In this document: one piece after another, positions 13,453 to 44,800 of the stretch | Numbering within the stretch: the first letter of the stretch is position 1 | Layout: the number at the start of each line of letters is the position of its first letter | DNA from: Watersipora subatra | Lineage: Eukaryota > Bryozoa > Gymnolaemata > Cheilostomatida > Watersiporidae | Length of the DNA stretch: 64,000 nucleotides | Assembly: GCF_963576615.1 (NCBI RefSeq) | Contig: NC_088715.1 | Location: 64,061,981 to 64,125,980, forward strand | Reading direction: 5' to 3' | Made by a program: the position numbers and the translations under genes | Notes under the pieces: model-generated | Databases searched by the model: none | What the model saw: the letters and a program-made list of their open reading frames with translations, nothing else | What the model was told of the DNA's origin: nothing

Positions 13453-16400
13453 TTGAGCTATATTACACTACCTGAAACAATATACATGTATATATTCAAC
13501 TTACTTTATCTTCTAGCTCGCATTGTTCACGGTAACGTGGTTGCACCCCGTTACGCGGTGTTAAAGCGGTTTCTGACCTATGTTCACTCTTCTATCGACT
13601 TCATTTTGCTACCTAATCTTGATAAAATTCTACCGGAATCTATTAGTATAAAACTTTTTTAACCATACTCGAAACCATTTCTCACCTCAGTGGTTTATTG
13701 GCCTCCCAATCTTTCTGTTACATGATCAGACACATTTGAAAATTATATAGCAGATTGTAAAGACACCTGTAATGACCTTATTATCCTAGGTGACCTTAAT
13801 ATAAATCTAAATGCACCCAATATTAAACTTTATATTTTAAAACAACTGGATCTGGTTCAGTTAGTCCAACAAAACACTCGAGTCCAGAAAAAAATCTCAT
13901 TTACTTATTGACCACATATACACAACAAAATCAGATAACATTCATCAATCAGGTGTACTCAGACTGGTATGACTGATCATTATCTAATTTTTGTACCTCC
14001 CCCAAGTTCGCCTCAACTACAGGCCCTAAACACGTCAAAAACTAACATGTTTTGCCTGGAAAAGCTTCTCAACTCGAGCTTTTTAAGAAGAATTGAAAAG
14101 AGCTGTCTGGCTATAGACTTGTCACATTCATTTACTTCTCTGAACTCAATTATCTTGCATCACTTAAAGATCGAGTCCTCAACTATTTCTCCTGGTCAGA
14201 TCGAGTCCTCAACTATTTCTCCTGGTCAGATCGAGTCCTCAACTATTTCTCCTGGTCAGATCGAGTCCTCAACTCTTCCTCCTGGTCAGATCGAGTCCTC
14301 AACTCTTCCTCCTGGTCAGATCGAGTCCTCAACTCTTCCTCCTGGTCAGATCGAGTCCTCAACTATTACTCCTGGTCAGATCGAGTCCTCAACTATTTCT
14401 CCTGGTCAGATCGAGTCCTCAACTCTTCCTCCTGGTCAGATCGAGTCCTCAACTCTTCCTCCTGGTCAGATCGAGTCCTCAACTCTTCCTCCTGGTCAGA
14501 TCGAGTCCTCAACTATTACTCCTGGTCAGATCGAGTCCTCAACTATTTCTCCTGGTCAGATCGAGTCCTCAACTCTTCCTCCTGGTCAGATCGAGTCCTC
14601 AACTCTTCCTCCTGGTCAGATCGAGTCCTCAACTCTTCCTCCTGGTCAGATCGAGTCCTCAACTATTACTCCTGGTCAGATCGAGTCCTCAACTATTTCT
14701 CCTGGTCAGATCGAGTCCTCAACTATTTCTCCTGGTCAGATCGAGTCCTCAACTCTTTCTCCTGGTCAGATCGAGTCCTCAACTATTTCTCCTGGTCAGA
14801 TCGAGTCCTCAACTATTTCTCCTGGTCAGATCGAGTCCTCAACTATTACTCCTGGTCAGATCGAGTCCTCAACTATTACTCCTGGTCAGATCGAGTCCTC
14901 AACTCTTCCTCCTGGTCAGATCGAGTCCTCAACTATTTCTCCTGGTCAGATCGAGTCCTCAACTATTTCTCCTGGTCAGATCGAGTCCTCAACTATTACT
15001 CCTGGTCAGATCGAGTCCTCAACTATTTCTCCTGGTCAGATCGAGTCCTCAACTCTTCCTCCTGGTCAGATCGAGTCCTCAACTATTTCTCCTGGTCAGA
15101 TCGAGTCCTCAACTCTTCCTCCTGGTCAGATCGAGTCCTCAACTATTTCTCCTGGTCAGATCGAGTCCTCAACTCTTCCTCCTGGTCAGATCGAGTCCTC
15201 AACTATTTCTCCTGGTCAGATCGAGTCCTCAACTATTTCTCCTGGTCAGATCGAGTCCTCAACTATTTCTCCTGGTCAGACAGCGAAATTCTGAAAAATA
15301 TGGAAAAGAGAGGTAAACTTACAAGCACTTTTGGAACGAATATAAAAAACAGGGAAATTACACGGCAAATCTGATACGTAAACATAAGAAACTTTAAATT
15401 TCTAACTTAGTTTCAGTGTAAAAAGCAAACGATAAGCAAAGCAAGAAGCTGTAGCAAGTTATGCGCAACACTAACAAAATAACACTAACCCAGATATGTC
15501 ATCAGAAACTGATACCCGAAAACGCTCATTGGGTAATGCGCTTAACAAGCATTTTGTCAACATTTCTAGAAGTTGAAATATCGAAAACGAATGCAGTTAG
15601 ACTCCTATTTCGTAAATCTATTCTCACGCTTCAGATACTATCTCATTTATACATACACCCGATGCAGTAAACATACTGCATTGCATTCGTTCAGACTAAG
15701 CTACAGGTATTGACAATATCTCAACTCAAATTATTTGCGAATCACTGCCATTCGTAAGCATGCCGATCACAGATATTATTAATAGAGCTATCAAGGAAGC
15801 AACTTTACCTGAACTATGGAAAACTGCTATGGTTACCCCTCCACACAAAGGCGGTAATAAAAATAACTTATCTAATTATGGACCCATATCTGTACTTCCC
15901 ATACTTTCTAAAATTTACAAAAGACATATACACTGTGCTTCAAATACACTTAGGCTACATAGCAACAAAACTATAAGCAGCTTACAGTCAGGATTTGGAA
16001 AAACCACTCTTGCATGACTAACATCCATCATCTCTACTCCACTTGGTCAAACATAAAAATACTTTAGTCATCATCTTTCTTGACTTTCAAAAAGCTTTTG
16101 ACATGGTTAATCATAATATCCTTATTTCAAAACTTGCAGACATAGGAATAACTGGTAAATTTCTTGATACCATCAGGTCATACCCGAATGGACGACAATT
16201 AGGTGTAAAAATAGAAAATATCTGCTCAGATGCTTTTCATATAGCTACTGGCTTTCCACAAGTTTCTATTCTTGCCCCCACACTGCCTCAAATTTTTATA
16301 AATGTTACCACTTTAAAGCTCACCTCATGGCTATGCTGATGACAACGCATTCTCTATATCTGAAACTGACCATTCATTCCTCCAATCTAAAATAAATGCA

Positions 16401-27800: not shown

Positions 27801-30800
27801 TTATATTATACGTCCACCTTGAAGGTAAGACTTCCATATGGTACGGATTTTACACAGTTATGTTACATTTTAGTGCAGATCGTGATCACTAAATACGCTG
27901 AAGTTACTGTACCGCGTTGCATTTTGATAGGAGCTGAATGTAGGTACTTCTTTTCAGATCCAGACCATGATGAAACACTCGCATTACATCTGGATATTTG
28001 CAGCAATCTGTATTTGAAACTTTATACTTCATCGAGAATGGTGAAGCATCATCAGAATAACTCAGTGTACTGCGCTTTTGTAAACGGACTTTGCATTTTT
28101 CAATTACTAAGTTCTATTTAATTAATATTAACATTTGAAAAGTTTACCTCATCAAGCTTTGCTGATTACAGCTATTTTACACTGTTTTCATTCAGAATGA
28201 TGTAAACCTAAAAAATATTGTTTTAAATAACATATTACTTGTACACTCCATGTTCTTAAATTATGTTACAGACTCCCTTGGAGAGTTTCTCATGATCACA
28301 TCTCACAACCGACTTTTATACGGGAGAGAATCATACATACCTGAGGCTACTTATGTATGTATTAAATTGTTCTATATTATTTGTAGTAGTAGGTTTGGTG
28401 GAAGGAGTAGATACTTGGAATGTTTCTGTCACACCATTCTGTTGCTGCTTTTAAACATGTAATTATATTAGTAAGTGGGGTGGCAGCATTTCACATTCTG
28501 TGCATTTTAATCTAATGCATTCTAATATGCCTAACAGGAGTTTTATTTTTACATTATACAGAAGATTTGCCTTGAAAAATATTTATTTCTGCTGTGTAAT
28601 CGTTAGTTGGAACTCCTCACAGTTTCATCCTTGTTGCAACAATTTCCTGCAGTCGAAATGTCTCTAATCCTCCTTTCTACAAGTAAAATCAATGCCTTGA
28701 TCCAACATATCCATGCATTTTTAAAGTAAACATTAAATGAGGTGCCACAGCGGCAAACCTATCCATGCATTCACTGTAGTACAATGTGTTGCTAATGACA
28801 TAGTTAATCTCAGAATTGTAATGAGATTAGATATTTCTAGTCCTGCACCACCTGAGTAATTGATTCTTTCCTCCTCTCATTCTACGAAACATGATGTGGT
28901 ATTGCTAAAGGCATGTCAGCCTTTTTAATGGAAATTTTAGTAGAAACTAATTATAGAGTAGTATTTATAACTAAGAATGTGTAGCCGTGTATCTGGTACA
29001 ACTTAACTAACAGGCATTGTTTGTGAGGGGTCAGATTAGTAACCTGCATCTAGATATATATTTCTCAAAGTTGGCCGTATGTGGGTGTGTCCAGCTATAG
29101 CTATTAAAATCTGGAAATTGGAATTCCGCGTTCTGATGGATTTGAACTCACAACGAAGGCATCCACAAGTTTTTTTATTTAGGCGCTTTACCACTGAGCT
29201 ACATAAGGCATCTTGATCAATGACGGTCTCATATTCACCGTATGCACACGCTAATTATTTTAGCATTGTGCCCACACGTTACGATGCCCCTGTTAAGAAA
29301 TGTTTTTCGTAAGGTTCAATTACTACATCTGGGTTCAAGCCACTTCTTCTCATGCGGAAAATTATATTATCTCCGTAGGAAGAGCTTTGAAATTCTCTCT
29401 CCGTTCAATCAGACAAAGACAGTACAATATCTCACTTTTACATTTGAACCATTATCGAGAGGTACCAGTATTGTCGTATTCAAAGTTTTGATGGATAGCT
29501 TCTGGTTGAACAGCAACCTTTTTTATATGCACGCTTCTATGCACGAATTGTTATTATTAATTCTGCATATTCAGGGTTTTTATTTTGTTTTCTCAGTTCG
29601 TTTTTATTTTGTTTTCTCAGTTCGTTTTTATTTTATCATTGCCGAATCATCTCTTATTGTAATTGTAGAAAAACAGACTTAATTTAGCTATTACTTGCTA
29701 ATTATTTCACATTTATATCTAAACTCTTTTATAGTTGCTTTATTTATTTTTAATTTATTTGACCTGCACAAAACACTTTTCTCATGATATGTAGTTTGAA
29801 AGTTAGAATGGCAAATGTTATATGTTAAATACAAATCAATTTTATGTCCAAAGACTTTTTTATTACCCGGGCAACGCCGGGTGGCACAGCTAGTTCTTTA
29901 TATAGCTGAATTTGATAAACGATACTAAAGCCAGTGATGAATGAAAGTAGATAAAGATGTTATACTGATTACTATTATACTATGTTATCATGGTATATAC
30001 CATATTATATGTTATATAATATATTTAATGCACACACATGATGCACACGCTTCACGAAGGCACAATCAGTTTATTTATGTATAGTGCACATTATATTGGT
30101 ATAAGTTTAGACGTTAGTATTTCATCAGGTTGTTTACGCAATTCAAGTACAGTGCACCCTCAGGATACGATTACTTTGATATAGGATTTTTTTATTTTAC
30201 GAGTTGGAACATGATGATTTTTTTACCTCACCATATGAATCTTATTTCGCTAAACGATTGCAACAACATTTTCGCGCGAGTTCAAATTTAGCAGTCGGTG
30301 TGGTATGCTTATTATATACGTCAAAATAACAAAGACGCCGAATTGCTGTTCGCCGAGAAAGATTTTTTTACTACCTGAAAGAGACATGATGACCACTTTC
30401 TCTGAGTTCAGAAATTCTCGTATGTAAAACAGTAATATTTTCCCTTTAAAGCCAGTAGCAAAGTTAGAGCTGCAATCCCTTCAAACAGAAGGTCAGTGGT
30501 CAGACAACTTCTTTTAACCTGCTAACAATAATCCACTTCATTACGAAAGCATCGGTCGGGCTTTCTTGCCGACTTGGGTTGAAAAAGATTTTAATGAGAT
30601 CGGCTAAAATGATATAGTTATAGGGAAAACAAAGACAGACACTGGTAGGTGATAAAATCTTAGTGATAAAAAGTTGAAATTCAGTAAATAGTCAGAAATA
30701 CATACTAAAACTTAGCTTTAAGTATGTGTTTAGAAAGCTTAACTTATTTAAAGTGAATTAAATTATTATATGTTATTATAGTATTATATATTATTACATG

Positions 30801-33800
30801 TTATATATTATATATATTAAATTTACATGTATATTATTTTATATAATGTATATATAAATATATATATATATATGTATATATATATACATGTATATTTCAT
30901 TACTCTTTTGATTGATGTTTTGTATATCAAAAGATGGACATCTCACTGTATGTGTCACCTTTTAACGAAACCTTGTTTACAACCGTGTGCGCCTTTGACC
31001 GGTATCCTAATATAACTTCTAGCAGTTTTTTATAGTCAGCTAAGCTGTTGTACAGACATCAGTCAAGATCTGTAGTCAGCGTGTTCTTGAACATGTGAGA
31101 CCTTAGAGAAGACAAATCCATATTTTTTTTAACCGAAAGGTGCATCTTTCGTAAACATCTTCTAGCCTCTTAATTCGTTATGATTCCAATTTTCTTTTTT
31201 ATCCAGGTAACCAATTTGACCTTTACCCTTTCCAACTCGACGGTGATGGCGTTTAATGATGGTGGCGATGTGGTGATATTGAGCCCGGCTGACACAAACA
31301 AAGTTGATCTTTACTCAGCTCGCTACTTGTCCACCATCCACCTGCCAGACGAAATACTAAAGTTGAGCAATATAGCTCCTTGCCCTGTAAGTCACACCAT
31401 AGATACTAGCACTGTCATAGGTTCATGTCCTCTAAGTCACACCATAGATACTAGCGCTGTCATAGGTCCATGTCCTCTAAGTCACACCATAGATACTAGC
31501 GCTGTCATAGGTCCATGTCCTCTAAGTCACACCATAGATACTAGCGCTGTCATAGGTCCATGTCCTCTAAGTCACACCATAGATACTAGCGCTGTCATAG
31601 GTCCATGTCCTCTAAGTCACACCATAGATACTAGCGCTGTCATAGGTCCATGTCCTCTAAGTCACACCATAGATACTAGCGCTGTCATACGTCCATGTCC
31701 TCTAAGTCACACCATGGATATTTGCGCAATCATAGGTCCATGTCCTCTAAGTAACACCATGGATATTAGCGCTGTCATAGCTCCATGCCCTGTAAGTCAC
31801 GCCATAGATACTAGCACTGTTATAGGTCTATGCAGTGGAAGTCATTTCCTAGCTCTATATTAACTAAGTCATACCATAACCTGTTGCTCACTGCTGATCA
31901 TAGGCCATGGATATCTTATAACATCAACTATGTAGTCATGGCTTACTTACGAGGTCACTGTTCATGGTCATGGCTATACTCAAGGGATAGCAGTAAATGG
32001 TATAGATACATCACAATTTGATAAGCCAAATAAAATATTTTTTCTTATTTTTTGCGCAACCTTTATTTTTTTACGCCAGTGGTCTTATTTTACTATATAT
32101 CCTATGTATATGTACTATATATACTATATACCTTACGTATCCTATATACCTTACTTAAATATACTGAAGAGCTTGTATGTATGCTGCTACAAATGCCAAT
32201 GTCAGACATATTTTGGCTTTGAAATAAATACTACGCAGTGTTGAGTAGTTGTCTATTCTTTTCTATTCACTGATTGTTCATTGCCTGCTCAGTCTCCTGA
32301 ATCACCATGACCTACAATTCTACTGTCTCTCTTCATATCTCATTACTCAATGGTCTGCTTTGAATGGTTCCCCATTTCTGCTGAACATTTGATCGTGAAG
32401 TCACTGTAGCCTAGCATACTTGACAAAGTTGCTAATGCAAACAGAACTATTTACTAAAAGTTTGTCTCTCAAAGCGCTGAGTGGTGGATATGTTGTATTT
32501 GCTATACTGGTTGTCTTCATCTGCGTACATATGCATGATGTGAGTCTATAGCAGTAGTTCTTAACCTTGTTGGACATACTGAACCCCAACCAGTTTCATA
32601 CACACTTTCACCTAGCCCTTTATTGAAAAATAAAATATGATTATTTTCACATTCAAGAAAGTTGCATGCTTAACTGGTGCCCGAGCTGAAGTGCATTAGC
32701 ATCACTGCGTTCGAAGAATGAAACTATTACAATGCATGGACTCACAACAAATTACATATCTTTTCATAAAGACATGAACTTGCATATCATTTTGACTTCT
32801 GTTGTTGCCTTTGAGAGACCAGTTCAGAAAAGTGTGGTTTTACTCTCATGTCATTTTTAAAGCAAAGTTTGACCCTTTTCGTCATTTTTGTGTCCAGCAT
32901 CCTCGGAAAAGATTGCTCGCAGCGGTATGTTTCAACTAATGGAATAAAAAATTTCCAGGGCTTTCTTAGCAATACCAGGATATTTTAACATTTTTTGCTC
33001 ATCACTTTTATGTCTTGATCTCCCGCAAACCCCTTTGGTCTGTTCTGTTATTTCAGTACCAGAGCTTGAAGGCTGACCGGCTCCATCACTACTATCTCAT
33101 AGACATCCATGGCAGTGTTGATCTCATTACTATAGTATACACAGATGAAATGAGCAACATATCAATAGCGGTACGTGTTCTCAGCTTACACGGCTTTCAT
33201 ATTTATTTTTTTAGTTTTAAATCCATCAGCAGAGATCCCATAGACACTGTTGCTTTGAAACATGTTCTGTCAAAGTTGATGTAAGATTATGAACAGCGCA
33301 GCCGTTGACCTCTACAGCCATGAACTTGGTGTTGAAGATATGTTTGTTCGTATTGTTGAAAGTCAGACTTGTGCAATCATAGACATGTGCAGTCATGAAC
33401 ATGTGTGGTTGTAACTACATTTAGGTAATTGATGTGTATACCCTAGACATGTGCAATCATAGACATATTCGATGTCATAAGAATTTATAATGACTCACTA
33501 AGGATCACATATTTATTCAGGTACAAACATCTGCTGGTCAACGGTTACAGCTCTACAACTCCATATCCCACACTCCAACGAAGCAAGGACTCATATCTCA
33601 TGAGATGGTAAGCCTAGTTTACACAATACTATTATATAGGTTGGATCTGAATGTGTCAGATAAACATGTTTTTGTTCTCCTTAGATTGAACATGACATTC
33701 CCATTCAACAACGGTTGCATTTCAATAAAATTGTTATTTATACTGGTTAGTCATTGAGAGTTATCTCGACTTGTCTTTTAGTGGAGATAACTCCAACCTA

Positions 33801-36800
33801 AAGATGTTGTCTTGAAGTTGCTGAATTTGTAATGAATTTTACAGCTTTTTATCATAGTAATCCTTCTCCTTGAGACACCAACTTTTATGGACAATGTCAG
33901 TGTATGCACTTATGTAGTCGTAGGGCAACGTACCGCCATCAGTCTGGTGAAATGTGGTGGTTCTTCAGTGGTTTGGCACTGAATACTGTTATATGGCTGT
34001 TATAATGGCTGTTATACTCACCATTGTACTTGTCTTTTGTATTTGGTGAACAACCAGAATATGTCTGTGGGATCATATTCTTGTCTGCAGCTATTAAGCT
34101 TTTTCAAGTTTCCTGCTTTTTAATTGACAATTATAGACACATTAGCTGTGCTTCCCGGTGTTGCCCGGGTAATAAACATCAGCATATAAACAATGAGAAG
34201 TAATGAGAGCTGCCTGCCACTTGCTATTAGCCTGGCACATTGCCAATGGAAAATTTGAGTACGCTTAATAATGTGAGCCAACAGCTTCTCGTGACATTAT
34301 GCTATGAGCCTGTGTCATACGCAAAGCCGTTGGGTATTTGTTCCTATATAGCGACATATATCAGCTAGTGAGGATATCAATCTCTGTGGCCTAAATGGTA
34401 CAGCGTCGAACTTGCGAGTGGGTGGGTCCGGAATCAAATCTTCTTTGGCGCGAATTATTTATTCCAAGATTTTAAGATCTATAGCCCGAATGCATACACA
34501 CATATGACATACTTTGAGAAATACATATAGATGTGATATAGATATATATGATATATATATATATGATATAGATATATAATATAGATATAGATATATATAA
34601 GATGTGACACTGTACGTAAATGTGATCTGAAGATGATAAAATTGAGTATTTGAGTGACTGGTTGTTTCCCAACAGAGGACTCGCGCTGTGCCAAAGCGTG
34701 CCACTTACCTCAGCCTACTTTCTCGTGCTGATCGTCCTTTGGAGTCAGGACAAGGTACAGCGTTACGAGTCGTCACTTCTTCAACTAGCCTCTCATGTCC
34801 AGAAAACTCCCAGAATGTCGCACACATTACTCTCGGCTGCGAGAAGGGAAAACGTCTCGTTATTAATAGGTATAGTCTTTACTGATTTGCTCTGTCTTTT
34901 AGCATTGTATAATTTTTGCCACATTCACAATAGTATAGACTATAGAGCAATATATTATAGCTTTGTTGGATTCTGTAACTTTGAAAACTATATAAGTCTT
35001 CTGCTGTCTTACATGACCTGTAATTGTGTAAAATGCATCATTTGTAATTACGTTTGCAGAGAGCCGGGACTGTGCGACAAACTGGCACATTCTGCCACTT
35101 ACGAGATACCAGCGTAAGTAACCCTTGATGCAATTAATCCTTTGTTATTTATAAATAATTAAATATATATATAATATCTTTTGTACATGTTGATATATTT
35201 ATTTGCATATTTATATAATTATATATTTTTATTTCTATGCAAATAATCTACTAATTTATACATTTGTTTACATTTATATATATATTAATTATATTCACAT
35301 ATAAATAGCATATAAGTGTATATATGTTACTACCCATGTTATACATTTGACATGTGATATGGTAGTGACAGAAGGCCCAACATTATATAATCACATTTGA
35401 TAGTTGAGTCAACTTGCGGTCATATCTTGGGAGCAAGCAAGGAGCCGGTGTACAGAGTGGTTGACTGGTAACATAAATGCTTTTAAAAACTATTTAACTT
35501 TTAAAAGCTATTTAGCTCTCGCCAATAAAAACATCAAACTCCGGTTTAGAAGAATATTCCTCAGTTCTGGTTAAGGGTGCTTGTAGATTTCCATGAAAAA
35601 TAACTAAAAATATTTTCTATAGAGTGAGGGTAAGAGATAAGAATAAACTAGGAGTTATTCTCTTCATGTAAATTTTAACAAAATATGATTGACAGTAATT
35701 ATTCTATCAAATAAAGAGCGACTTACAAATGAATTCAATAACATCATTTTTAGCATTCACCAAATGCATTTGTAATATGGCAAGTGTTTTATTGTCATAG
35801 CCTACAATCATCAACTGGTTATTAAGATCTCCGACCACTGTCAATGAAGCCTCCATTTTTGTGTACCGTCGTGCATTCTGATCAAGATAAAAACTACAAG
35901 TTCTACATTTGTGAAAAATACGTGATTGGATGTATTGATGCAGCATTGTTTCATTGATGATTAAATTCATAGAGCAAACGATGTATAAATTGCATGCGCC
36001 CAACGTGTCTGCTTTACTCTTAAGCCTGACGTGTCTACCGAGTGTAGAGCTCGAGCCCTACACTCGAGCTCTACGCATTGGGAAACTTGAGCACTTAATG
36101 TTTTAACTGTAATAAAGAATTCCAAGGTGATTCACTGAGATTTTTCTCATCCTCAGTCTTGACGGATGCCATGTGTGGGTCTCGCTGTGCCGGCTGACAT
36201 CCTCTTATATTCGAGTTAAAGCATTCTTGTTACCGGTATGTTATCTAGCTGAGTATTAATCACTTCTTGTCTGCAAGAAATTTATTTTTCAGATATGGAT
36301 GTTATCTATATTTTCAGAGAGTTTTACGATGATGACCAGGGCAAGTATGGGGGGAAGCAGGCCACAAAACCTAAGACAGTCACATATAACTTCAGACGAT
36401 ATGGCTGTGCCAACAAAACCTACTACAATAACCCTTTTATCTTTGATCTGCATTTGTAAGTCTTCTTTGTTACCTGCAGCCGTTTTTGCTTGCGACTTCT
36501 TGCAAAACTTCATGTATTCGATTTTCCTTGTCTATAGGGGCTTGATTTGAACTTGACCTCGGTGTCACCTGAAGTGTTGTATTTAGTTTTGTTTTGAGAA
36601 ATTTATGTATTTGCGTCTATTCCTTTGCTACGAAGAGAGTTTATGGCAGGACAAGCAGGTATGAATTGTTAGTCACTATTATTAACTCGGGCCATTGCAG
36701 GTACCAGGATGCTACCTACCTCGGGCCCATGAAAGGGGACTACGTAATCTATGAAGTAAATGGAGTAAACAAGTTTAACTACAGTCTAACGCTAAACACT

Positions 36801-39800
36801 TCTGGGTGTGCAGTTCGACCACAGACATGGAGGGAGATGTTGTTGTCTGCTCCAGATAACGCGTCAATGGATGAAGTCTGGACCCGGAAGGTATGCAAAT
36901 GCTAGTTTTCAGTAGCATCATATGCATGTCGTCATGGTGATCGTATAGGTTTTGCTTTGAATTTTTTAGTTTAATTATTTTCCGGAGAGTATTTCTTTGC
37001 TGTCCCCTAGCTGGTTGAAAGTATGTGAACTCAAGCCATTACCTTTGAGTGTCGGTGGTGAACATGGCATGACTTCAATGGATTCACCAGTTTTTAAGGC
37101 ATCTCCCTTGAAATAAACTTTACTGATAGTTTTGAAAATTTACTTTGCATATCCGCGTCTATATAATTTTCATGCTTTCATGCTTTTTCAGCAATACTTC
37201 AACTCAGATATTATCGTTTGTTGATTTTTTATGGATTTGACTCTCTCTCTGTTAAAAACTCATCAATGTGATATCCAGGTCATAATGGAAGTGCCTTCGG
37301 TTGCTGTTTTTGTGAGTCGGTTATTAATTGTAAGTTCTTTCTACTAAACCGTCTGTTTAATCTTATAGAACTATAGGAATTGTAACATACTCTATGATAA
37401 CCACCCTCGTAAGTAAAAATCATCTTACGCTTGTTTAAATCTATGTTTTTAATTGCTACGTTCATATGTTCTATTTATTCATTTATCTGTTGCTCTCTCT
37501 CCTTTTCTCTCCTTAGGACCTCGCTCTATCTCTCCCTTCTGATATCTACCCTTCGCTTCCTTTTCTCTCTTTAGGACCTCGCTCTATCTCTCCTTCTGAT
37601 ATCTACCCTTCGCTTCCTTTTCTCTCTTTAGGACCTCGCTCCATCTCTCACTTCTGATATCTACCCTTCGCTTCTTTTTCTCTCTTTAGGACCTCGCTCT
37701 ATCTCTCCTTCTGATATCTACCCTTCACTTCCTTTTCTCTCTTTAGGACCTCGCTCTATCTCTCCTTCTGATATCTACCCTTCGCTTCCTTTTCTCTCTT
37801 TAGGACCTCGCTCCATCTCTCCCTTCTGATATCTACCCTTCGCTTCCTTTTCTCGCTTTAGGACCTCGCTCTATCTCTCCTTCTGATATCTACCCTTCGC
37901 TTCCTTTTCTCTCTTTAGGACCTCGCTCTATCTCTCTTTCTGATATCTACCCTTTGCTTTCGTATTGTGATGTTACCTCTTTGCTTCCGCATTTATTTTG
38001 TAAGTTGATCACTTGTTACCACTTCCTGCATTGTTAGTTTAAAGACTGCAGCTTTCTTACAGGGAACCAGCTATACTCTGCACAACCTCAAGATCCGTAC
38101 GAAATTCTGAATTACGATAACGGCAACTATCTGACTTTTACCAAAAATGGTTTCTACATTTTTGAAATTATTGTTGTGGACAATGAATACAGGTGAGTAT
38201 TCAACCAGATGCTGTACAATTAGGTCAACCATTAGATGTACTTGGATTATCGATGTTCACAAATGTTGTTCTAACATGTTGTAGCCTGTGTGACTTGAGG
38301 GCGCATCTAGCTGTTGAGGTTTTTGGGGTGCAGCCCGAGGTGCCGGTAGGATACTTTTGGATTATGGGTGGAAGTCTAGGATGCTTGCTAATTTTGATGC
38401 TAATCATCTTTATTATTGTTAACGGTCGACGACGACTTCGATTAGCAGAGGAGAAGGAGATGAATGTCATTGAAGCATTTGACGATATTGTAAATGAGTA
38501 AGTACCTGCCGTATTTGTCATTCTCTATGGTTTACACTCGTATGATTCTAAATGAGTTGTAGCTGTAGCACTTGAGGCCACTTGTTTACGCTTGTCTTAG
38601 TTTCAGTTTATTTGTGGCCCGTGCTGTTGCAGATCATGCGTTCTTCTAATCTTGTTCAATAATTTTGGGATTTTGACCAGAGCAGTCAAACCTTTACTTA
38701 CACTTTCCTCAACACCCCCATTTGCTCGCATACAAACTAGTATTTATTAGAAAATAGAATCTGAGCAAGTATTCGGCTCTACATCCAAAGTAACTTTCAA
38801 CATTCACAGTTTTTTAAACTATGCAGTTTTATACGCACGGTCAAGAGCTGATGAAAATCTACAATAAAATGCAAAAATGTAACGATAACATATATATACA
38901 TGTATATGCAAAGCTAGTTTGAAGCTTCACATCTAGAGTTAGCTATGTTTTTGAACTCTACTACGACATCTACCGCTGAACTTAGCCATCGTTGAGCTTT
39001 TATTTTCATTCACATAACTTTAGGGTAACGGAAAATCTTTGTTGTTGCGTCCACTAAAGAATTGTACCATCTTGGTTACCATACTTTTTTTATCTTTGTG
39101 CTGAGCACCTAGTGATCAGAGGAACCTGTAAATAGACCCATTCTTCAAGGAATCCCATGCAAATTAGTAGTTTTAGTTTGATTATTGTAGTGTCTAGATG
39201 TTTTGCAGGTGTAGTTAATGGGAAATATAAAAATCCATTTTGGCATAGCCCAGTATCCTTACAATCTGGATCATAGGCTTGGCTAAATAAAGTCAATTTT
39301 TTACAATGACGCTTTTACTGAAGCTGTAAAAAATACCATGGGTAATAGCTACACTTGATGACAGATCTTGCTAGTCCTTTTTCACGATACTTTTTATCAA
39401 GTCACAGATTTTTAATAACACCTACACCGGCTGTGATGTTAGCCAAAAAGCAATACATTCATAGCTATTTTCAGTAATTAATTTTTGTTGGACGAAGACT
39501 ATTGCATTTTTTCTTATCTGCAACTTTCAAAGTGCAAAAAGATGTACCTATTGCTCATGGAGATAGAGACAGGAATGAAATGAACTACTATAAATGAACA
39601 CTGCCTTCAACCTGCTGCCAATGAAAGCATTATTCTCCCCTTGTCAAAGCTTGCATTAGTGTTTACGTCTAGAAGCGACATCAACCTGTTTATGCGACCT
39701 TCACTCAATACCCCGTTACTGCACTCAAATGCTTGCAATCAACCTGAAGTCAGGTTTCAATTGAGGCGTTTTTGTAATTGAAGGCTATTCTTGGCAAACG

Positions 39801-41893: not shown

Positions 41894-44800
41894 TCAGACA
41901 TAAGTTTCTTTGGAGTTCTCTACCTCTTTTACCCATCTAGGTCTCTTTGTGGATGAAGGCTGACTAAGAGAGTTGTCCTCACATTCTTCTACATTCGACA
42001 GATCCACACCTTGTTCAGCATATCTATCTGTTGAAATATATGAACTGAGCTGCAGAACATGAAAATTTCAGTCAGCAATGCTGGTAGGCCAGTAGTGGGC
42101 TAAAGTAGCTAGGTATGCTCGGCTACTACCATGACAGCTAAATGTGGTGGTAGGAAATATCCTAGGAGGATGCAATGAGATCCGCCATTGAAACTAGAGT
42201 AGAGAATGATCTATCCCCGACATTTTAGAGATACATGTATATCATTCAACTCATGTCTTTATAATTTCACACAGAATAAGTTGTCCTCAGTAACACTGCT
42301 ACAGGTATTACAACTGAACTAAAGAGCACAGCATTATTTTGGAACCACAGAACAACAATAAAACTAATCCTAGCCTAATTTCCATAGACTTAGATGTCTT
42401 ATACTCGAGTCCTGTTTTGTCTCGTTTAGCCCACCAGTGGTCGCTGGAAAGATTACTATCTCTACATAGACAACAGATATTATGTGTATGATATGACTTG
42501 ATGGTTAGGGTGTTTGACTCCAAATTGCCAGGCAGATGATCAAGTCTCATGTAACTTAGATGGGAACAGAAAGAGCACTAGTTGGGGTGATAGGGGATAC
42601 ATATGCTGATACATCTATAACACTATTATAACACGAGACAACCCGAGAGTCTGCTTGAGCCTGCAATTAAAACTTAGCTTAGTAGCTTAAAGATTGTGTG
42701 GAGTAGGATGAAATGGCGAATGCTGGGGCCACAAAATATGTTTTAGTGGTTACTATGATTTAGTTGCAAATGAAATGAAAAAAGTAAAAATAGAAAAATA
42801 TGTAAACAAATATAATATCAACAGGAAGGCACAGAGCTCTCACCCTTCTTTTACCACAAAATTAAGGTGAGATCAGTAAGAGCTACATATTTCTCACAAG
42901 CAAGTTGAAAAAGCAATCCATGGACCTCTAAACTAATAAGTGATGACTCTTTGCTGCAGGAACTCGAAAACCAAAACAACTAATCGCAGTTCTTCAGCTG
43001 TTATCCGTTACGGTGTAACAATTGAAAGAGCAGCGTCAGCTTCTGTACTGAACCTCAACAAAACAGTAGCAGGCTGATGCTCCTCAAACGGCAGTAAGTA
43101 CTGGTATAATACAAGTACACTGATGAAAAATAACATTGAACATTTACAAGCTATAACCTTGCCAATACTCGCTACTCACCAAGGTTCATGCATTATAGTT
43201 TACAAGTTTGTTTCCTACATTTGTAACTGAAACATCTCACAACTACAACTTAAGTCGTATAAACATACAAAGATAATGATACATACATAATGATAATACT
43301 CAGTCTATAAGCAACACTGTCTGTAAGAAGCAAAATTCATAAACTCACCTGTTGAACATGTTTCCGTAGGAATTGTGTTGGTCACAACTAAACGAGACTG
43401 CATCTTTCCCCTTTCACTGCTGTGAGTCACATCGAAGTTTTGTTGAAGGGGAGAGCTCTTTACTTCCTTTTCTTCTGGGTTATGGCCGATTGCTTCACTC
43501 GTCTCCTTTTCTTTGTCTACTCGTCCAAGAGCAGGCGCTTCACCTCCACCCCCTTCATATGTTTCTTCTGCCTTGTTATCTAGGTTAAAGACAAGAGCTT
43601 TATCCATCTCACCTTCATCCCTCTCCCTCAATTTGCCATCTGATGCAGGGCCGAGCATAGCAGCCATTGCACCTTTCCCTATTTTCTCTGTGTGAAAGTT
43701 TTGAGACGAAATAAGTTCTTCCACTTTTGTTTCGTCTCCACTTGTTGATGGACTTACATCTCGCGTAGTTTCCTCCCCTGTTACTTCCGTTTCCGGCTTC
43801 GATGTGATATTCTCCTTTATGCAGTTCTCTGGTAGACTTGGTTCCAAAGGCAAGTCTGCTCCGTCGCTAAATGTGGTAGCTGTGCGTCTCATAGAGGACA
43901 CAATGCTCCCCATCCTTGGCTGAGGGAACCTGACACCGGAGGTGTTAGATGTGGAGATAGGATTATCAGTGGCACCTGACAGGGTAGTCCGTATACTTGT
44001 AGGTACTCGACGCTTAGGGGGCTTTGGTGGCGTCTTAACAATCAGAGGAGCATCCTCTAAATACAGCTGCAACCGGAGACAGTAAAATGATTCGTGTCAG
44101 AAAGAGCCCCAATGTCGGCCAGCATTTACCAAGTTTCATTTGCCCACTTCCCAACCGCATTAACATTCAACTATAATGATGTATGATCGGGTTAGGGTTT
44201 CTGTTCTATGCCTTGGGCTGCTACCTAGTAACTAGTAGTGAGCTGCTACCTAGTAACTAGTAGTGGGCTGCTACCTAGTAACTAGTAGTGAGCTGCTACC
44301 TAGTAACTAGTAGTGAGATATTAAATGTACGGCAAAAAATAATTTCGTCTGTTGGTTAACATTGAACAATAGATACTGATGTGTATTCACACCATTTAGC
44401 TAGCGCTATAAGACAAGGGAGGTGACTCGTAGAATAAGTCTCAACATGGCGGGTAACTAAGAGACTAGATAGGAACGGTGGCCTTCTACAGTGATATGAT
44501 TGGTTGATATGATTAATTGATGGAGCAGTATAATCAGCGGAACAAAACCTCGTAGAACTAGTAAAACTAGCCTGCAATCAGCTGAGGTAAGGGTGGGGAG
44601 GCTAGTCGAATTCAAATGATGAAACAATGATTATAATGTAGAACAGTTGCTATGAACTCAAGTCAGTATCACAGGTAAGTCTTATTGACTTCCAGTAGTG
44701 TCACAGATAAGTCTCACAGACATTGAGTAGAGTCACAGGTAAGTCTCACAGACTTCCAGCAGTGTTACGCACATGTTTCATAGACTTATAGTAGACATGC

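Follow-up and report, generated by a model that had tools for sequence, protein, structure and literature searches.

A 45-bp minisatellite across a putative exon–intron boundary of a CatSper delta-like gene in Watersipora subatra

Tandem repeats within genes are familiar from coding VNTRs, e.g. those of mucins, in which the unit length is a multiple of three and the reading frame stays open. Human introns have reportedly also arisen from tandem arrays (the work of Zhuo et al. in PNAS, 2007), which, to go by its title, are a source of alternatively spliced introns. In human segmental-duplication genes, internal tandem repeats are located at exon–intron boundaries and are either kept or spliced out (De Grassi and Ciccarelli 2009, PMC2812944). 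The paper reports 27 intron modifications, with nine of the ten coding ones in frame (its table 2), and for 66% of the intron modifications a transcript carrying the repeat in the exon was found as well.

Here we describe a minisatellite at an exon end of a CatSper gene of the bryozoan W. subatra, which is a further example of an exon–intron-boundary minisatellite, ordinary in kind. Its units lie across the boundary as in the human cases (PMC2812944), but its inner units lack the donor GT, and whereas the human cases have transcript support and paralog copy-number variation, this array is known from the sequence of one assembly. With the coding VNTRs of mucins it shares a unit that is a multiple of three and an open frame, yet its pattern of change looks neutral and its translation is putative. 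In contrast to introns newly formed from arrays, as ascribed to the study by Zhuo et al., the CatSper case proposes a second donor for an existing intron. A search of one literature library returned no paper combining CatSper, CatSper-delta and tandem repeat, and the available portions of PMC4039745, PMC2746811 and PMC2586383 do not describe such an arrangement.

Gene identity and exon structure

The analyzed window is a 64-kb stretch of assembly GCF_963576615.1 (784-Mb genome), located on contig 8 at positions 64,061,981–64,125,980; all coordinates below are window positions unless stated otherwise. Splice-site scores stem from a generic position matrix that was typed from general knowledge and not trained on this genome. 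The following exons were accepted.

28272–28354, forward strand: probable upstream CatSper exon (SLGEFLMITSHNRLLYGRESYIPEATY) from the gene-model script, ending in phase 0, weak donor (3.5)
31207–31386, forward strand: exon of 60 codons, phase 0/0, ending KLSNIAPCP; acceptor 13.6, donor 7.4, delta alignment
33057–33170, forward strand: downstream exon (YQSLKADRLHHYYLIDIHGSVDLITIVYTDEMSNISIA) starting in phase 0; acceptor 9.0, donor 8.3, delta alignment
36701–36890, forward strand: CATSPERD/E C-terminal domain exon, PF22850 E = 2.9e-9
37369–37408, forward strand: 40-nt exon NYRNCNILYDNHP, which brings the flanking exons into frame and matches NYRPC of epsilon
38063–38192, forward strand: CATSPERD/E C-terminal domain exon (PYEILNYDNGNYLTFTKNGFYIFEIIVVDNEYS), own acceptor score 9.2
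38285–38501, forward strand: most downstream coding exon found; it includes a hydrophobic segment and ends with the stop TAA (38499–38501)

An automatic exon chain over 17–39 kb called 38 exons, mostly noise; it gave the accepted bounds for exons 28272–28354, 33057–33170, 37369–37408 (in another frame) and 38063–38192, and called the remaining accepted exons in pieces or with different bounds. No further exons could be settled between 33170 and 36701 or upstream of 28272.

Exons 36701–36890, 38063–38192 and 38285–38501 match PF22850 with E = 8.9e-23 (81.3 bits versus a cut-off of 27.4), in line with an earlier reading of the sequence alone that had named a CatSper subunit gene. By this domain match, the window gene is a CATSPERD/E-family auxiliary subunit. 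Inclusion of exon 37369–37408 improved the E-value against epsilon from 3.2e-16 to 6.8e-18 and that against delta from 2.1e-11 to 7e-15, leaving the C-terminal exons slightly nearer to epsilon. A second CATSPERD/E gene on contig 7 (~911–913 kb, reverse strand, locus L068) matches epsilon at 8.5e-23 and delta at 3.7e-12 and is by these scores a clear epsilon candidate. When window exons were compared with this contig 7 region by tblastn, recognizable matches came from the C-terminal exons only.

The middle exons were searched against 177,635 sequences of solved structures (E ≤ 10). Exon 28272–28354 aligns to CatSper delta AFLVAEDHLYYGSQSYMGTYV, and the query composed of exons 28272–28354, 31207–31386 and 33057–33170, joined via the proximal donor described below, retrieved CatSper delta as its sole match in this set (9ubw_G, E = 0.61; 7eeb_G, E = 0.73). 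As both entries are identical over the aligned stretch, they count as one observation, whose E-value is weak when taken alone. The alignment is collinear over 108 residues and gapless at the junction (IAPCP/YQSLK versus LQPCN/VELLE). The two-exon query alone gave no match at E ≤ 10, nor did, at the same threshold, a query with 135 residues inserted at the junction, the latter being partly an effect of gap costs. The window gene thus probably encodes CatSper delta or a delta-like subunit, a label that is not certain, because the C-terminal domain alone is slightly nearer to epsilon.

Organization and origin of the array

Tandem Repeats Finder places a minisatellite at 31372–31832 (period 45, 10.2 copies, 93% matches, score 768), and its head-to-tail 45-bp units fall within the unit lengths of minisatellites or VNTRs (~10–100 bp). 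Ten full units occupy 31372–31821 and are followed by a decayed eleventh of ~22 bp, reaching to about 31843; its first 22 bases are identical to the common unit at 16 of 22 sites, the remaining 23 bases at 7 of 23. The last 15 nt of exon 31207–31386 are the start of unit 1, and the repeat hence overlaps the exon–intron boundary, with 15 nt exonic and the remainder past the proximal donor. The boundary itself is placed at 31386/31387 by the sequence together with the weak CatSper delta alignment and is to be read as putative.

31372–31843, forward strand: 45-bp minisatellite, 15 bp exonic and the rest intronic by the proximal donor definition
31387–31392, forward strand: proximal donor CCT/GTAAGT in unit 1, at the gapless CatSper delta junction, score 7.4
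31417–31776, forward strand: units 2–9, with CTAAGT at the donor position; units 3–7 identical
31792–31797, forward strand: distal donor CCT/GTAAGT in unit 10, nine bases equal to those of the proximal donor, score 7.4

Units 1 and 10 read CCT/GTAAGT (at 31387 and 31792) and units 2–9 CCT/CTAAGT. Units 1, 2, 8, 9 and 10 each deviate from the common unit. At the level of sequence, a single exon is therefore provided with two usable-looking donors, at 31387 and 31792, which both score 7.4 because their bases from −3 to +6 are identical. The frame of exon 31207–31386 is open through all units up to a stop at 31861–31863, so that splicing from the distal donor would lengthen the exon in phase 0 by nine units or 135 codons, from 180 to 585 nt. 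The would-be insert contains 10 cysteines and no N-glycosylation sequon. The sequence-only reading had put the array at 31375–31835, with GT in the first and last copies, CT in the eight between, and an open frame, which the distal donor would extend by 135 residues. The array is real, although its coordinates were shifted by 3 bp at each end, and the GT/CT pattern and the in-phase extension were described correctly. The further claim that the minisatellite multiplies a splice donor holds for the donor sequence as such, but GT donors are confined to two of the ten units.

A genome search that leaves out simple repeats and highly frequent words found the array at a single place and no other copies; a dispersed repeat family as its source was rejected on this ground, within the same limits of the search. 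Between units 1 and 10, 3 of the 45 sites differ; at positions 5, 12, 16 and 40 the two agree with each other against all of units 2–9, one of these four linked positions being the donor G. As the eight CT units carry one linked set of states, a single change explains the split between GT and CT units, and the switch from GT to CT was probably one event. Selection on the GT/CT pattern was considered and rejected, since the four linked states in the CT units need one change only. The identity of units 3–7 suggests a recent spread. From these patterns we infer a lineage-specific array and the following order of events. A 45-bp junction stretch, comprising 15 nt of the exon end and 30 nt of the adjoining intron start, would have been duplicated. 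The donor of one copy would then have mutated from GT to CT, and this copy would have been multiplied by recurrent slippage or unequal exchange, with the old GT donor kept in the end units.

Frames and splice sites in other arrays

Coding constraint was sought in the differences between units. The 15 distinct changes relative to the common unit comprise 11 nonsynonymous and 4 synonymous ones, compared with a neutral expectation of ~73:27 (P(S ≥ 4) under neutrality = 0.60). An excess of silent changes between units, as a sign of protein constraint, was accordingly not found among these 15 changes, a number that gives low power. The substitutions among units look neutral.

The open frame was compared with those of 67 arrays (period ≥ 15, at least 3 copies) in 316 kb, consisting of the window and loci L007–L070; this set includes one duplicate from overlapping loci, and one long array may be split in two at the L069/L070 boundary. 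Frames are open throughout in 81 of 402 cases for all 67 arrays and in 19 of 120 for the 20 arrays of at least 400 bp, or, with the CatSper array excluded, in 18 of 114 (16%) for 19 such arrays. We therefore rejected the open frame as evidence for coding. The period is divisible by three in 29 of the 67 arrays, and of the 210 donor-like hexamers in the window, 105 precede a phase-0 frame that is open for ten codons. A 37-copy array of 30-bp units at window positions 14168–15280 has all three forward frames open.

Overlap of arrays with splice sites was surveyed at 60 exons of kinases and ion channels, taken as the 30 highest-scoring matches for each of two domains and thus not a random sample. 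Arrays with a period of at least 10 cover 13.6% of the window versus 6.5% of the flanks of these 60 exons. At the 60 loci, 20 donors and 24 acceptors were callable, and arrays touch two of the former and one of the latter: the donor at L016 is genuine, the donor call at L058, inside an array, is ambiguous, and the acceptor at L063 is doubtful. With so few junctions surveyed, the overlap of arrays with splice sites can be accounted for by chance, given the observed array density, and shows no excess. Both the open frame of the CatSper array and its position at a splice site are not unusual in this genome.

The genuine case, at L016:2015–2329, belongs to a kinase that we take to resemble OSR1/SPAK. 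Its array of ~45-bp units begins exactly at the exon donor, and the next exon (GTPCWMAPE) follows at 2604 in the right phase. It resembles the CatSper array in unit length, in starting at a donor and in that several units keep the donor, but differs from it in having no exonic bases and in retaining GTGAGT in five of seven units; its later donors shift the frame or come after a stop. Splice-silent growth, in which only dead-donor units expand, was rejected as a rule, as this array with its mostly intact donors opposes it.

Units with GTRAGT on either strand occur in 7 of the 67 arrays compared with 2.7 expected from mononucleotide shuffles; minisatellites in this genome are possibly enriched for donor-like sequence, which we regard as a lead only. 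A scan for three spaced CAGGTAAGT gave 446 matches on both strands versus 74 for the reversed control; these are matches rather than array counts, and the 100 matches listed all come from two arrays. An array of 28-bp units on contig 1 (3480598–3483294, reverse strand) has the consensus donor CAGGTAAGT in each of its at least about 97 units, and the consensus of a 32-bp-unit array at window positions 44665–44795 likewise includes CAGGTAAGT.

The CatSper gene itself contains a second array, with possible acceptors in place of donors.

37500–37959, forward strand: second array, in the CatSper gene intron before exon 38063, with eight acceptor-like sites

These sites (e.g. TTTCTCTCTTTAG/GACC, a pyrimidine tract plus TTAG/GA) score 10.8–13.4, and the acceptor of exon 38063–38192, at 9.2, is below all eight. 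Their spacing is 57 or 58 bp, which means that the frame is not kept, and no likeness to the acceptor of exon 38063 was seen by eye. They may be a chance product of the CT-rich unit. The presence of this array makes the CatSper gene a good place to seek unusual splicing. Elsewhere in the window, positions 16022–16339 hold a reverse transcriptase fragment (PF00078, E = 2.7e-9) that is probably a retrotransposon remnant, and the reverse strand of 43305–44096 has a 263-codon open frame with no Pfam match at E ≤ 1, perhaps a long exon.

Splicing outcome and significance

We favor, with moderate confidence, an array that grew from a CatSper delta-like junction whose proximal donor is mainly used, the distal donor being a relict that maybe gives a minor isoform. 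Most transcripts would be spliced from the proximal donor at 31387, the array being lost as part of the 1.67-kb intron; the site at 31792 would persist as an intact remnant, from which a minor in-frame isoform extended by 135 residues may arise. Preference for the proximal site is suggested by its junction, which is the one matching CatSper delta, so that splicing most likely removes the array within the intron. The distal donor could nevertheless be used, because its nine bases equal those of the proximal one. The same identity from −3 to +6 counts against a proximal preference, as the sites themselves favor neither donor. In two-exon test constructs, moreover, the one of two equal donors that is nearer to the following acceptor often wins, which would favor 31792.

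Substantial use of both donors as alternative 5′ splice sites, with subunit length tracking copy number in 15-residue steps, draws on their nine identical bases, on both being in phase and on all units being open. It also has a precedent in the human intron modifications with an additional repeat-keeping transcript (PMC2812944). It would demand an exon of 585 nt rather than 180 nt, the units bear no sign of constraint at the protein level, and an open frame is expected in about 16% of frames anyway; we consider such substantial use of both rather unlikely. Human boundary minisatellites often give both kinds of transcript, and a minor long isoform, as allowed by the preferred account of mainly proximal splicing, would therefore be unsurprising. 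The sequence itself gives no sign that the extended form is produced or of any importance. The array might alternatively be a constitutively exonic coding minisatellite, with a real distal donor and the GT of unit 1 as a silent leftover. The frame is indeed open throughout, and a donor GT is absent from the eight inner units and retained in unit 10. GTAAGT is, however, intact in unit 1, the substitution pattern looks neutral, and CatSper delta of known structure has no insertion here, if the weak alignment is followed, which together make constitutive inclusion improbable. Use of the distal donor in testis, adding a 15-residue repeat rich in Cys, Pro, Ser and Thr whose length differs between males to form a hypervariable ectodomain, we regard as highly improbable.

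The copy number or the GT/CT pattern could partly result from repeats collapsed or mis-joined during assembly. Five identical units are collapsible by assemblers, and the assembly contains one matching place, hence a single haplotype of the array. As the array is only ~470 bp long, units 1, 2, 8, 9 and 10 are distinguishable, and the contig is chromosome-sized (65.6 Mb), we give an artefact hardly any credence. What stands of the sequence-only interpretation is the gene family, the two equal in-phase donors and the extension between them; its functional reading is opposed by the neutral-looking units, by the weak but gapless match of the proximal junction to delta, by the GT/CT pattern that one change before expansion explains, and by the donor-anchored array in the unrelated kinase gene. 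Main use of the proximal donor with minor use of the distal one is the outcome that we infer from the sequence.

With its many minisatellites and at least one further donor-anchored array, this genome is suited to a genome-wide test of how arrays affect splicing. Should the short form be the only product, the CatSper locus would be a clean case in which a minisatellite has grown over a splice site, mostly by dead-donor units. Production of the long form would mean that a fast-mutating repeat alters the exterior of a sperm calcium channel in 15-residue steps, a route by which a fertility protein could change rapidly and which can be tested directly, with peptide LSHTIDTSAVIGPCP as the marker of that form in sperm. 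Were the ectodomain indeed hypervariable, this part of the sperm channel would be open to selection at fertilization.
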